Positions 1,819 to 32,369 of a DNA stretch of 32,369 bases are shown here, one piece after another. Under the pieces are notes generated by a model. The model did not search any database. It saw only the letters and a program-made list of their open reading frames with translations, and was not told the origin of the DNA. The stretch covers positions 1 to 32,369 of the IMG/VR virus record IMGVR_UViG_3300045930_000231; one strand, written 5' to 3'. This stretch comes from a virus. Every line of letters begins with the position of its first letter. Position 1 is the stretch's first letter. The position numbers were made by a program, and so were the translations under genes.

Positions 1819-2023
1819 GATGGTGATGTGGGCTCGTGCCTTGGATTGCGCCTGTGACGCCTCTGCCGATGGCGGGTATCCCTCGGAGTTTGCGGGTGTC
1901 GCCGGCGGCGGTGCTGACGTACACCTTGAGGTCTTCGTCTACTTGGGTGCGGGTGGCGCGTTGGATGTTGGCTTCGTCTTGTGCGGCGTGGCGTTGGCGT
2001 AGGTATTGCGGGAATCGGCTCAT
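1814..2023 (-). CDS. Hypothetical 69-aa protein at the end of the early operon
   Basis: The start at 2023 overlaps the stop of the 158-aa gene as ATGA, the standard coupling in this genome. The protein begins MSRFPQYLRQRHAAQDEAN, is polar, and ends in a His-rich tail (PHHHR). I do not recognise a family. The longer reading in the same frame upstream of 2023 is antisense to nothing useful and overlaps the 158-aa gene, so it is rejected. It is the last gene before the candidate late promoter. Confidence 0.62.
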   Translation of the reverse strand: MSRFPQYLRQRHAAQDEANIQRATRTQVDEDLKVYVSTAAGDTRKLRGIPAIGRGVTGAIQGTSPHHHR

Positions 2024-2496
2024 TGGCGTTGGGCCTTTCTCTTGGCGTAGAACTGTTCGCGTTCTGCGTCGCTTGTTTCTGCTACGGGTCTGAGTTCTCG
2101 GTAGAGCTCGAGGATGCGTGGTTTGGTTTCGATGTATTCCTGGAGCATGCCTCTTACGCCGAATAGTTCGTCTTCGATTTCGGATTCGCGGTCGTAGTGC
2201 ATGCCGGCGGTTCGCATCCATTGTTCGGCACGTTGGATTGCCTTATCTCGTTTCGTTCCTGGCTCGTGCGTGGGGTTGCGCGTTCCGGCGATGACTTTTT
2301 CGACTTCGGTTTTGAGTGCGCCCCATGGCGAGCGAATCTTTCCGGCTTTGTGTCCGAGCGTGATCTTCTCGAACGAGCGTTGCACGAGCTCGGGGTGGTC
2401 GGCGTATGCGTCGATGAGTGTGTCTTCGAGGTGGCTGCCGGGTGGGTCGCCGCCGATGTCGCGCATGAACTGGTTTCGGAGGGTTTGCCAGTCCAT
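2020..2496 (-). CDS. Replication-associated protein, possibly a helicase-loader-like domain
   Basis: The protein has 158 residues. Its N-terminal half is helical and includes SPWGALKTEVEKV, a pattern like the C-terminal region of phage replisome organisers and primosomal proteins. It follows a gene for a winged-helix initiator N-terminal domain, with a 53-aa ORF between. The start is ATG at 2496, five bases after the upstream stop, with GAAGGAAGGAAGG as ribosome-binding site. That site can pair with an upstream complement, so translation may be controlled. Function is inferred from position and general composition, not from a catalytic motif. Confidence 0.72.
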   Translation of the reverse strand: MDWQTLRNQFMRDIGGDPPGSHLEDTLIDAYADHPELVQRSFEKITLGHKAGKIRSPWGALKTEVEKVIAGTRNPTHEPGTKRDKAIQRAEQWMRTAGMHYDRESEIEDELFGVRGMLQEYIETKPRILELYRELRPVAETSDAEREQFYAKRKAQRQ

Positions 2497-2498
2497 TT

Positions 2499-2660
2499 TT
2501 AGCCCTTCCTTCCTTCGGTTGGGCGTCTTCTGGTGTGCGGGGTCTTGTGTAGGACGTTGGAAGGAAGGAAGGTAGTAGTACTTCTGTCACTTCCTTCACT
2601 ACCTTCAACGCGCGCCGCGTCCACACTTTTCCGCGACCTGTCCTGCGGACGTCCGCTCAT
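2499..2660 (-). CDS. 53-aa Arg/Ser/Thr-rich ORF linking two replication genes
   Basis: The ATG at 2660 overlaps the stop of the initiator-like gene as ATGA, and the TAA at 2499 falls just before the ATG of the 158-aa gene. The ORF therefore fills the gap exactly. The sequence is low-complexity and basic, resembling the linker of two-domain replication proteins. It may be a true small protein, a leader ORF whose translation opens the RNA structure ahead of the next gene, or the linker of an initiator split by a frameshift. Confidence 0.5.
   Translation of the reverse strand: MSGRPQDRSRKSVDAARVEGSEGSDRSTTTFLPSNVLHKTPHTRRRPTEGRKG
2504..2606 (-). promoter_or_regulatory. Mutually exclusive RNA pairings over a ribosome-binding site
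   Basis: Bases 2504-2516 and 2560-2572 form a perfect 13-bp inverted repeat, and the former contains the ribosome-binding site of the 158-aa gene. Bases 2568-2576 and 2598-2606 form a perfect 9-bp inverted repeat. The middle segment is shared, so the mRNA can form either the 13-bp stem, hiding the site, or the 9-bp stem, freeing it. Both lie within the 53-aa ORF, so its translation would disturb the folds. The purine/pyrimidine repeats could instead be origin iterons. Confidence 0.5.
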
Positions 2661-3001
2661 TTGTCCACGCCCTGTCCTGCGGACGCTCTGGCTCTGGCGC
2701 GGGCCTCTCGCTTCCGTTTGCGGTCCTTCTCCCGGCGCCTGTCGCGCAGCCCGTTGTGCTCTTCCCAGTCGTGGATCGTGACCGTCCCTTCGGCGCCGTT
2801 GGGCACCCACAGGCCGGCGTCGACGAGCTCGGCGCGGGTGCGGCTGGTGGCGCCCAACATGCGTTGGATACTGCGATCCAGCTTCCCGGCGGTGCTCATT
2901 CCGCTCGAGTAGGCGAGCCCGAACGTGTAGGCGACCTTTGCCTTGTCGGACAGCCCGACGATCTTCGGGTGGCACCAGATGCGGTCGTCGATCCAGGCCA
3001 T
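2657..3001 (-). CDS. Replication initiator-like winged-helix N-terminal domain protein
   Basis: The 114-aa protein starts MAWIDDRIWCHPKIVGLS, the familiar opening of phage replication-initiation/helix-turn-helix proteins (D/W-x-HPKV-x-L-S). Residues about 1-85 form the DNA-binding domain, then a highly charged Arg/Lys/Asp segment, where such proteins usually run into a linker and C-terminal domain. Here a TGA stops it and the frame changes to the 53-aa ORF through an ATGA overlap. A 15-bp direct repeat (2637-2651 and 2671-2685), offset by 34 bases, straddles the stop. I chose the ATG at 3001; the upstream extension is rejected because it overlaps the 64-aa gene. Confidence 0.75.
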   Translation of the reverse strand: MAWIDDRIWCHPKIVGLSDKAKVAYTFGLAYSSGMSTAGKLDRSIQRMLGATSRTRAELVDAGLWVPNGAEGTVTIHDWEEHNGLRDRRREKDRKRKREARARARASAGQGVDK

Positions 3002-3002
3002 C

Positions 3003-3197
3003 TCAGGTGCCTTCAGCCCACGAGTGGGCGTGGCAGTAGCGGCTTCCCTTCCTGCATGGATTTCCGCACAAACTGCAGCGAAACGCGAAGCCGGAGCGAC
3101 GCGTGATCGTGTGCTCGATTCGGCGTAAATCTGAGCGTATTTCTGCGATTTTCTGGTGGGCGTGCTGAGCTGTCTGACGTGCGAACCGGTCATTCAT
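3003..3197 (-). CDS. 64-aa putative zinc-binding protein
   Basis: The C-terminal half has C-x2-C-x3-C-x6-C-HAH, a compact cluster of cysteines and histidines that could hold one zinc ion. The N-terminal half is basic and helical. I do not recognise a named family. It ends two bases before the initiator-like gene and starts 24 bases after the RuvC-like gene, so it belongs to the replication operon. A second ATG overlaps the first at 3193; the first (3197) gives this frame. A nucleic-acid-binding role is a guess. Confidence 0.68.
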   Translation of the reverse strand: MNDRFARQTAQHAHQKIAEIRSDLRRIEHTITRRSGFAFRCSLCGNPCRKGSRYCHAHSWAEGT

Positions 3198-3221
3198 TCC
3201 GCTGGTGCCCTTCCTGGCCGC

Positions 3222-3683
3222 TCAGGCGGCCTTGGCTTCGATGGCTTGGCGGGTGGCGAGGGCGATGCAGTACGCGTCGCACGCGTCCTGTGGCCACACG
3301 ATCGCGTCTATGCCGCCTCCGCACTCGAACGCGACGAACTGCATGATGCGTTCTTTGGTGGCGTTGCCGGGTAGTCCGACGGCTTTGCGCCACACGTTCG
3401 GCGCCCACGGCTGCACCAGCTTCGACCGCGGCAGTCGCGAGAGGATCGCGCCTTGGATGCGGTAGAGCGCGCCGGCGTTGTAGCCGCGGGGGTCTTCGAT
3501 GCCGATCGCGACGACGTCGTCCCAGAAGTGGCCTCGGGGCAGCACGTTGGTGAGACGTGCTCTCTCGAACGCGTCATGTCCTTCGGTAGGGAACCTGTCC
3601 CATTTGGGTCGCTCGAGGTCGTCGAGGTGGACTAACACGACGTCGACCGCGAACGTGGAGTAGTCGATGCCAGCGACGTACAT
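3222..3683 (-). CDS. RuvC-like Holliday junction resolvase
   Basis: The 153-aa protein has the RNase H-fold acidic pattern of RuvC-type resolvases: D7 in AGIDYST, E63 in AIGIEDPRG, and D133/D136 in PQDACDAYCIALA. Its length is right for the family. Such proteins cut branched DNA made during phage replication or recombination, or resolve it before packaging. The ATG at 3683 overlaps the previous stop (TGATG). It sits in the replication cluster and could work with the RecE/RecT-like pair further upstream in the operon. Confidence 0.85.
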   Translation of the reverse strand: MYVAGIDYSTFAVDVVLVHLDDLERPKWDRFPTEGHDAFERARLTNVLPRGHFWDDVVAIGIEDPRGYNAGALYRIQGAILSRLPRSKLVQPWAPNVWRKAVGLPGNATKERIMQFVAFECGGGIDAIVWPQDACDAYCIALATRQAIEAKAA

Positions 3684-3916
3684 CAGAACCCGATGTCCGC
3701 GATCTCAGGGTCATAGGCTGGTGTCTCAGCCCGCTCGGCCGTGTCGGCGAGCTTGAGCTGGGCGTCCCGGTTGACGGGCCGGTGGCAGTCGCCGCAGGTC
3801 CACCGGTCAGGGTCGATCCATTCGCCTTGCGGCTCGTAGACGCGCACCCGGTCGCCGCACGAGCGGCAGGTGAGGAGACGTGCTCCGGTCACGTCGTTCA
3901 CGTTCGTCCGGCCCAT
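3683..3916 (-). CDS. Small zinc-ribbon protein
   Basis: Two CxxC knuckles, at about residues 17-20 (CRSC) and 41-44 (CGDC), make a rubredoxin-like zinc ribbon in a 77-aa protein. Ribbons like this usually bind nucleic acid or other proteins; the target is unknown. The ATG at 3916 has AAGGGG upstream, while a GTG at 3901 would give the GTGA overlap seen throughout the genome and a 72-aa protein. Both starts keep the ribbon. It is coupled to the resolvase downstream by TGATG. Confidence 0.72.
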   Translation of the reverse strand: MGRTNVNDVTGARLLTCRSCGDRVRVYEPQGEWIDPDRWTCGDCHRPVNRDAQLKLADTAERAETPAYDPEIADIGF

Positions 3917-15415: not shown

Positions 15416-16734
15416 TAGCTAGGGGCGCCGAAGATGTCGGTTGCGTAGAACTCGGCGGGCGACAGGTTCGGAGTCACCGTCACGATGTCGTAACCGGGTG
15501 TCCCGACGCGGCACTCACCCGAGATTCCCTCAATGAAGAATTCGGCGTCGGTGAGTCCGGCCTCGTCGACCCACATGTGGATCACGTCCGAGATGTCCAT
15601 GCGGGTCAGGATCTCCCACGTGTCCGCGGCACCGGTCCAATCAGGGTGATACGACTTGAACGTCACGCGTTCGATGTTCTTCCGAGGTTCCGCGAGGTTC
15701 GTGACGTAGAACGTGCCGAACAGCTCGCACTCGTCAGCGCCGGTGTTGCCGTTCGTTTTGTGCTCCTTGATGATCAACGCCGGTGCTTCTCGGCCCCGCA
15801 GCCCGTAGGCGGAAATGGACGTCGCGTCCGTCTTCGTCATGGTCGCGATCAGCGACGGAGGGAAGTCACGTGCCTGCTGTGTCAGTTCGGGCCACGCCGC
15901 GAAACTGTTGACGATCCGGGCGCGTGGGCGGTTGTATTGGAACTCACGGATGTGCGCGCGCCCGGTAATGACGTCTTCGCGGGTCGCGGCCTCCCACCGA
16001 GTGAACGTCCATTCCGCGCCGCTCGAGGTTGTGTCCGGGTCGATCTTCGCGAATCGTCCGTGGAACACCTCGCGGCCGTACCGGTCGCAATACACGTTCG
16101 CGAGACCCAACGGGAACTCGGCGTCGGCGGCGTCACGCATCGCCCCCAATATGTCGTCGTCAGGGTCATACACGGTTTCGTGCACGTTCACGTTCCCGGT
16201 GAAATGCACGTACATGGACGAGGCGAGTCCCGCGTCGGACGCGAGGTCGTCCAGCCGTCCGTCCACCGGGCCGTCCTCGTAGAACACGACACCGTCCATG
16301 CCAGCGGGCAGCACGTCACCGAACGTCCCGACCACCATCTTTACGCCCGCCAGGTAATCCAGGATGTCGACGCAGTCGAGCTGAACGTTCGTAAGCGTCG
16401 GAGCTCCCGGCGACGGGCTCCCATGGGCGTCGTCGATGTGTCCGCGAAACACCGGCTCCCACGCGGCCGCGACGGGGTCGTACAGCTGCAACATGATCTG
16501 GAGTCCGATGAAGTCCTCGGACGCGAAGGTTCCGTTGCGGTCGTGGAAGTAGACGCGGGCGGTGCCGGTGTTCGTGACGTCGAACTCGGACTGCCGTCCG
16601 CGCTGCCAGTCGAACCCGCCGCACCGGCACGCCGACAGTTCGTCGTATCGCGTCCATGACGGCTCAGCCACCAACGGCCCGGCTGCGGTGGCGATCAAAA
16701 CGCGCCCAGCGCCAGGGGAGGCGTCGACCGCCAC
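15415..16734 (-). CDS. Minor tail/baseplate protein
   Basis: The 439-aa protein directly follows the tape measure gene, the slot of distal tail or tail-associated proteins. Its N-terminus (about 25-130) looks like a beta-rich Dit-type segment, with Cys-rich ACRCGG; the rest is mixed alpha/beta. The GTG at 16734 is immediately after the tape measure stop. I do not recognise catalytic motifs. It probably forms the tail tip hub or adaptor. Confidence 0.75.
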   Translation of the reverse strand: MAVDASPGAGRVLIATAAGPLVAEPSWTRYDELSACRCGGFDWQRGRQSEFDVTNTGTARVYFHDRNGTFASEDFIGLQIMLQLYDPVAAAWEPVFRGHIDDAHGSPSPGAPTLTNVQLDCVDILDYLAGVKMVVGTFGDVLPAGMDGVVFYEDGPVDGRLDDLASDAGLASSMYVHFTGNVNVHETVYDPDDDILGAMRDAADAEFPLGLANVYCDRYGREVFHGRFAKIDPDTTSSGAEWTFTRWEAATREDVITGRAHIREFQYNRPRARIVNSFAAWPELTQQARDFPPSLIATMTKTDATSISAYGLRGREAPALIIKEHKTNGNTGADECELFGTFYVTNLAEPRKNIERVTFKSYHPDWTGAADTWEILTRMDISDVIHMWVDEAGLTDAEFFIEGISGECRVGTPGYDIVTVTPNLSPAEFYATDIFGAPS

Positions 16735-31925: not shown

Positions 31926-32369
31926 CAGAACACCTGCATCGCGTTGCCAACTCCCGTCGACGCACCAAGCGCCAACGTCACCGCCACAAGCGGGCTGATG
32001 TTCACCGTCGAATGCTTCCGACCCCACGCCGACGAACCATCACCAATCGGACGCGCCTTCGCACCACGGATCGCATCCCTAAGTTCCTCCGACCCCAAGT
32101 GACACACCTCACCCTCCGACACCATGTCGACGAACCGGCCCCACGCCTGACCATGCTCCGTCGCGTTCACAACCTCGATCCGCAACCCCGCGTCCTTTAG
32201 CGGCTGCAACAGCGAGCTCGCCGGCCCGGTCGCATCGACAACCCAGCACTCGAACAGCCCCCGCTCGTCCATCTGCACGATCCGATCGACCATCCAGCCG
32301 GTGCCCACCCGGTGCTCGTGCACCTCCACCTGGAACACACCCCGGTCGTTCCGGCCCGCGACCGCAATC
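31925..32369 (-). CDS. terL: Terminase large subunit, C-terminal part (continues from position 1)
   Basis: This fragment contains the last part of the nuclease domain, including D378 in VVDATGP, and ends at the TGA overlapping the portal start. Bases 32243-32369 duplicate 1-127, so the unique part is 31925-32242 (105 codons plus stop). It joins codon 375 at positions 3-1 without a frame change. The whole protein is about 480 aa. Confidence 0.92.
   Translation of the reverse strand, partial: IAVAGRNDRGVFQVEVHEHRVGTGWMVDRIVQMDERGLFECWVVDATGPASSLLQPLKDAGLRIEVVNATEHGQAWGRFVDMVSEGEVCHLGSEELRDAIRGAKARPIGDGSSAWGRKHSTVNISPLVAVTLALGASTGVGNAMQVF
32243..32369. repeat. Right copy of the 127-bp terminal overlap
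   Basis: Identical to bases 1-127. It should be counted once; removing it gives a closed 32,242-bp circle. Confidence 0.93.

Follow-up and report, generated by a model that had tools for sequence, protein, structure and literature searches.

The closest described counterpart of the locus studied here is the replication origin of phage lambda. In the available portions of the reports on it, this origin maps inside gene O and consists of inverted-repeat iterons that are bound by O dimers, with an A+T-rich region beside them (PMC5043065, PMC6022878). For the extrachromosomal mycobacterial prophages, the accessible text of the relevant study describes the RepA gene and its adjoining DNA as sufficient for replication, the origin being presumed to lie within or beside repA (PMC7157519). 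A further point of reference is oriC of Bacillus subtilis, where helicase loading can be guided by the DnaD recognition element, a motif repeated on a single strand, according to the accessible part of that source (PMC10201434).

We analyzed a virus record of 32,369 b (hereafter the window), in which the region at about 2685-2559 has, with good probability, the makings of a lambda-type replication origin: a repeat array directly behind the DNA-binding domain of an initiator. As in lambda, the array stands at the initiator gene, contains palindromic iterons with a neighboring tract that could open, and is followed by a second small gene of the replication module (O then P in lambda). Whereas lambda has four iterons and a strongly A+T-rich stretch, the window has two full iterons and purine/pyrimidine tandem repeats; also unlike lambda, its initiator ORF ends within the array and the 158-aa protein encoded next has no significant similarity to P. 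The mycobacterial RepA systems share an initiator gene with the origin presumed in or beside it, but RepA, as far as the accessible text of that source goes, is a plasmid-type protein of 320-350 aa, whereas the window phage encodes an integrase and a Rep of 114 aa. The Propionibacterium phages B22/E6 and the Gordonia phage BritBrat have an initiator of the same family and the same order of domain, iterons and short tandem repeats, and B22/E6 further resemble the window in having the array outside the Rep ORF. Their repeats are different: B22 has a AAGCAAACGGGT iteron and CCCGTA, and BritBrat a GTGACAGAC-like iteron and CCCGA.

The initiator gene and the array behind it

The window carries an exact direct terminal repeat of 127 b (1-127 and 32243-32369) and the junction of its ends is crossed by a contig, L011; hence, this record probably represents a complete circular or a permuted genome. 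L011 and another contig that is likewise 100% identical, L010, both stop at 1398, upstream of the terminase; this break may mark the edge of a mosaic segment or variation between strains. No DNA-level relatives of the window were found among phage records, and searches of genome contigs with P0001 and the Rep alignment recovered no relatives. On the 32,242-b circle obtained by removing the terminal repeat, the GC skew reaches its lowest point at 1,380, 1.2 kb away from the candidate origin, and its highest at 16,593, with a range exceeding that of block permutations (0, 0 and 1 of 1000); the purine skew has its minimum at 2,800 and also turns at 16,727. Leftward orientation predominates among the long ORFs whose third-position bias is coding-like, which makes gene direction an improbable source of the skew, and the turns could reflect early and late gene modules.

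The ORF of the initiator, Rep, opens at 3193 on the minus strand; alignment with relatives places the start at the ATG at 3001, giving a protein of 114 aa (2657..3001). Its residues 4-108 match the family profile phrog_3926 (phrog_3926/2447 group; E 1.9e-17), a domain that we take to be a winged helix. The initial annotation had assigned the replication function to the downstream 158-aa gene; the ORF recognized by a profile is instead the upstream one (2657-3193), and the 158-aa protein has no family match. The Rep TGA overlaps the ATG of a 53-aa ORF (2499..2660, minus strand) in the form ATGA, reported as the commonest spacing among closely spaced genes (PMC12548453). The 53-aa ORF spans the whole region, as had been reported, and its TAA ends 2 nt ahead of the 158-aa ATG. 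Its GC3 is 0.56, as compared to 0.66 for the 158-aa ORF and 0.80-0.91 for five recognizable genes. It carries ARVEGSEGSD, a sequence that in the relatives L049 and L050 forms part of the Rep ORF, indicating that Rep of the window has been shortened and its tail moved to another frame; this frame change at the end of Rep may alternatively stem from an assembly error.

All elements of the array are given here as read on the minus strand. Iteron 1 (2673..2685), inside the end of Rep, and iteron 2 (2639..2651) are copies of the 13-mer CGTCCGCAGGACA, a palindrome of the form TGTCC-GCA-GGACA with one mismatch; within the window, even with one mismatch allowed, it is found only at these two places. 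They are followed by a GGCGCGCGTTGAAGG element (2602..2616), which is present in the window, L049 and L050 and as a variant in L062. Next come three purine-rich 9-mers, GAAGGTAGT, GAAGGAAGT and GACAGAAGT (2580..2606; consensus GAAGGWAGT), which also follow GGCGCGCGTTGAAGG in L049 and L050 and have variants in L025 and L062. CGCGTTGAAGGWAGTGA and GAAGGWAGTGAMGGWAGTGA are confined to the records of the window, L049 and L050 among the 67 loci compared, with variants in L062 and L025. The array closes with the pyrimidine tandem repeat CCTTCCTTCCTTCC (CCTT array; 2559..2572), a tandem repeat matched in strength by none of 312 control segments and found elsewhere, among the loci compared, in L062 only. 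The A+T content of this stretch reaches 46-54% at best against a genome mean of 34.6%, and three 100-bp windows here (at 2481, 2501 and 2541) rank within the top 20 for A+T, which places the stretch among the A+T-richest of the genome without making it A+T-rich.

On the plus strand, 2559-2572 reads GGAAGGAAGGAAGG, which, like the complements of the CCCGA arrays described below, consists of evenly spaced G pairs or triplets; a G-quadruplex is thus conceivable at these places. The actinobacterial DnaA box has the consensus TTGTCCACA, and TTGTCCACG between the iterons (2661-2669, plus strand) is one mismatch from it; DnaA boxes show no genome-wide excess and none lies in the arrays of the relatives. 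Terminator-like sites number 3 against 2.7 expected, with none on the minus strand.

The relatives differ in how this DNA is translated. G009 (locus L025), which was reached via its terminase (66%), has Rep as a single ORF of 331 aa, while Rep alignments gave L049 (55%), L050 (52%) and L062 (53%); six further loci obtained in this way (L054, L055, L057, L058, L060 and L061) were left out of the comparison. An array stands behind the Rep domain in every one of these relatives, and most elements of the window array are kept where the initiators are 47-55% identical, despite differing frames. The 12-mer iteron core GTCCGCAGGACA occurs just behind the Rep domain in two copies in G009, two in L049 and one in L050. 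In L049, the two iterons fall in one ORF and are translated as SAGQ and VRRT, and the second iteron of the window is translated as RPQD. Thus, the retention of the DNA elements in the window, where a shortened Rep has lost its tail to a different frame, points to a function of the DNA itself. The L062 array has GGCGCACGTTGACGG, purine repeats and CCTTCCTTCCTTCC, and its palindromes are different (GTGAC-type); the arrays of L056 and L028 are merely analogous. In L062 (3001-3573), the initiator domain is followed in the same ORF by a domain resembling HNH endonucleases (phrog_589), and this ORF ends immediately ahead of the iterons, making it possible that a homing endonuclease is lodged at an origin. 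In G009, the gene that immediately precedes Rep contains a long imperfect tandem repeat of GGGATGCGCGGGCTGCGT units (L025:3030-3220).

Pairing of the repeats in the leftward mRNA

The initial annotation had interpreted the same region as a translational attenuator, in which ribosomes on the 53-aa ORF would choose between an upstream hairpin and a helix hiding the ribosome-binding site of the 158-aa gene. The complementarity on which it was founded is real. In the leftward mRNA, 2516-2504 (GAAGGAAGGAAGG) is perfectly complementary to 2572-2560 over 13 nt, and 2606-2598 (GAAGGTAGT) to 2576-2568 over 9 nt (10 with a G-U pair); as both helices need the 5 nt at 2572-2568, the full helices are mutually exclusive. 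The purine-rich 9-mers form the left arm of the proposed hairpin, and the CCTT array is the right arm common to both folds. GAAGGAAGGAAGG (2504..2516) holds the ribosome-binding site of the 158-aa ORF, with GGAAGGAAGG (2513-2504) 7 nt ahead of the ATG at 2496. A perfect 13-bp inverted repeat arose in none of 300 shuffles of 2660-2499, and the genome has four such repeats with a spacer of up to 120.

The two helices have close local energies (-23.5 and -23.3), and the two repeats form a predicted imperfect hairpin of 23 pairs (about 2554..2611), which takes the place of the 9-bp register, whose pair probability is 0 in the predicted fold. A fold of 131 nt gave a z-score of -2.6 and the 70-nt hairpin one of -3.1 (1 of 200 shuffles as good); in absolute energy the hairpin is ordinary, being equaled by 1749 of 3230 70-nt windows. 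Over 2660-2440, the hairpin fold reaches -74.7 kcal/mol and the masking fold -69.0, 5.7 kcal/mol worse; the sequence thus permits the 13-bp pairing to hide the GGAAGG site as claimed, but in the full leader its probability is about 0. Only in a segment without the left arm (2580-2500) does the masking helix become the most stable fold. By these energies, a switch is physically possible if a ribosome occupies the left arm, which would favor masking, yet masking is not the resting state. An Rfam scan of 1900-3300 gave no match up to E 1.

Across the relatives, the z-score of the 70-nt element is -3.1 in the window, -2.5 in L062, -2.0 in L049 (with a different pairing), +1.2 in L050, +0.7 in G009 and +0.2 in L056. 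In an alignment of four sequences, 51.6% of the cells of the hairpin are paired as against 52.2% in shuffles, with no two-sided changes. For the masking helix, 45% of the cells are paired and 3 pairs show two-sided changes; shuffling the letters gives 31.1%, a share of 45% being reached in 1 of 500 shuffles, whereas slid controls reach 48.7% (at a shift of one column) and 4 pairs with two-sided changes. With few and heavily gapped sequences, these pair counts are weak evidence either way, and direct reading of the arms and ribosome sites of the relatives is the stronger test. L062 retains both arms of the upstream hairpin; however, the CCTT right arm is absent in three of the four relatives (L049, L050 and G009), and GGAAGG is lacking before the 158-aa homolog in both relatives found to carry that gene (L049 and L062). 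The pairing that masks the ribosome site is therefore seen in the window only. Relatives with unpaired or non-covarying arms had been named in advance as the finding that would count against the switch, and this is what the comparison returned.

The spacing of the genes (ATGA, then +2) fits coupled ORFs, which the attenuator would use; however, a ribosome finishing the 53-aa ORF halts on the ribosome site itself, favoring simple coupling, and the GC3 of this ORF is not coding-like. Translation of the 158-aa gene is probably coupled to that of the 53-aa frame. We consider the attenuator very improbable and have dropped it after an examination of energies, pair counts and relatives; it is not conserved. 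Most likely, the paired repeats belong to the origin rather than to an RNA switch for the next gene.

A candidate origin and the competing explanations

As a fallback, the initial annotation had offered an origin in or by the initiator gene with the GGAAGG/CCTTCC repeats as iterons. The substance of this suggestion is supported, though with different elements: the role of iterons probably falls to the two palindromes (2639-2651 and 2673-2685), not to GGAAGG/CCTTCC. At most, these latter tracts would make up the tandem-repeat portion of the array, and the copy at 2504-2516 serves as a ribosome site, which is seen in no other locus than the window. The array starts within the 3' end of Rep, immediately after the DNA-binding domain, and its palindrome, in two copies and conserved in three relatives, is a predicted binding site. 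Rep dimers would bind the palindromes, and the adjoining purine/pyrimidine tract, which is locally A+T-richer, would open. The arms of the hairpin would then correspond to the pair of strand-biased tandem repeats within the origin, and the match of CCTT to the ribosome site a by-product in the lineage of the window.

Lambda P brings the helicase to O, and by analogy the 158-aa protein (2020..2496, minus strand) could perhaps bring in the helicase here. In L049 (31% identity, E 1e-22) and L062 (34%; alignment A8), a homolog of it comes immediately after Rep. This all-helical protein was assigned to no PHROG family and to no Pfam family above its cut-off. AlphaFold modeled it with a pLDDT of 72.9 alone and 81.6 with two homologs (pTM 0.43-0.44), and Foldseek searches with these models returned nothing at E <= 0.001. 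The top PDB row for the better model was the phage lambda loader P with DnaB, a non-significant match (E 0.25, TM 0.28) that serves as a lead only. Going by its position, the 158-aa protein is possibly a helicase loader.

Two further explanations bear on the palindromes and the repeats. The palindromes might serve in transcriptional control by Rep or by a repressor and play no part in an origin; they resemble those of many dimeric regulators and the sequence is compatible with such a role. Their location at the 3' end of a gene, the lack of sigma-70-like promoters in 1900-3700 and the recurrence in many phages of this placement, after the initiator domain and next to tandem repeats, make an operator array very unlikely. 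The repeats might also be low-complexity coding sequence specifying a flexible linker between initiator domains, since the array lies within the Rep ORF in most of the surveyed phages, G009, L049 and L050. Against this, one iteron is read in three frames, and the array falls outside the ORF in the window (except for the first iteron), L062, B22/E6 (L007 and L006), Taheera (L043) and L029, leaving a mere linker as a most improbable account. The lambda-type origin is accordingly our preferred reading, and, if right, it narrows the origin of an uncultured phage to about 130 bp. It would also mean that a real and statistically unusual RNA pairing can arise as a by-product where strand-biased origin repeats lie near a purine-rich ribosome site.

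Arrays behind other actinophage initiators

For comparison, we took 25 annotated actinophage loci picked by eye for variety, six from the 20 listed of 29 records and 19 from the 60 listed of 500, and also read the DNA behind the initiator domain in several uncultured loci. The common order starts with the initiator domain, followed by iterons that are repeated or palindromic, then by short tandem repeats and sometimes by a hairpin, and the surveyed tandem repeats are mostly pyrimidine-rich on the coding strand (CCCGA and its kin). Within a fixed interval behind the initiator, a short tandem repeat surpassed all control segments from the same locus in 16 of the 27 segments, and the other 11 had no outstanding one. 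Repeated 8-mers were matched by at most 1 of 100 shuffles in 23 of the 27, the exceptions being L042, L044, L047 and L048; clear failures are L047 and L048, on both tests, and L042. The tandem-repeat survey leaves out L006 and L036, near-copies of L007 and L038, and its anchor for L029 is out of frame. The tandem repeats of L037 and L038 lie outside the fixed interval and were seen by reading, that of L037 being recovered in the hairpin survey. In the latter, which leaves out L006, L036, L029 and L063, a perfect hairpin (stem of 8 or more) follows the tandem repeat in 10 of 32 segments versus 22 of 238 controls, which is no more than suggestive of a general feature; the window has no perfect hairpin by this stem-8 rule.

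The literature searched, from which most subscription journals were absent, showed no description of this tandem-repeat anatomy of actinophage initiators, which is not proof of novelty. If the origin reading is right, the shared anatomy indicates where origins could be tested in many annotated actinophages in which the initiator is labeled a hypothetical protein. More tentatively, and as a possibility we hold to be somewhat unlikely, a broad family of GC-rich phages might have replaced the A+T-rich opening region of the lambda type with strand-biased short tandem repeats (CCCGA, CCCGTA, CCGTCT, CCTT, GAAGGWAGT, GAGAG), often followed by a hairpin, that would act as a single-strand capture and helicase-landing signal like the DnaA-trios and the DnaD recognition element. 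As far as the accessible text on the latter goes, these are short repeated motifs of one strand in an opening region and so offer a possible analogy for the tandem repeats of the window; unlike the DnaA-trios with their TnnT rule, however, CCCGA arrays contain no T. Were such a landing signal to hold true, origins could be read straight from hundreds of actinophage genomes. Seven of the loci (L005, L030, L033, L034, L045, L059 and L064) have a perfect hairpin directly after the tandem repeat; its stem measures 8-11 bp and its loop 3-4, the loops being TTAC, TAAC, TAC, TGAC and their kin.
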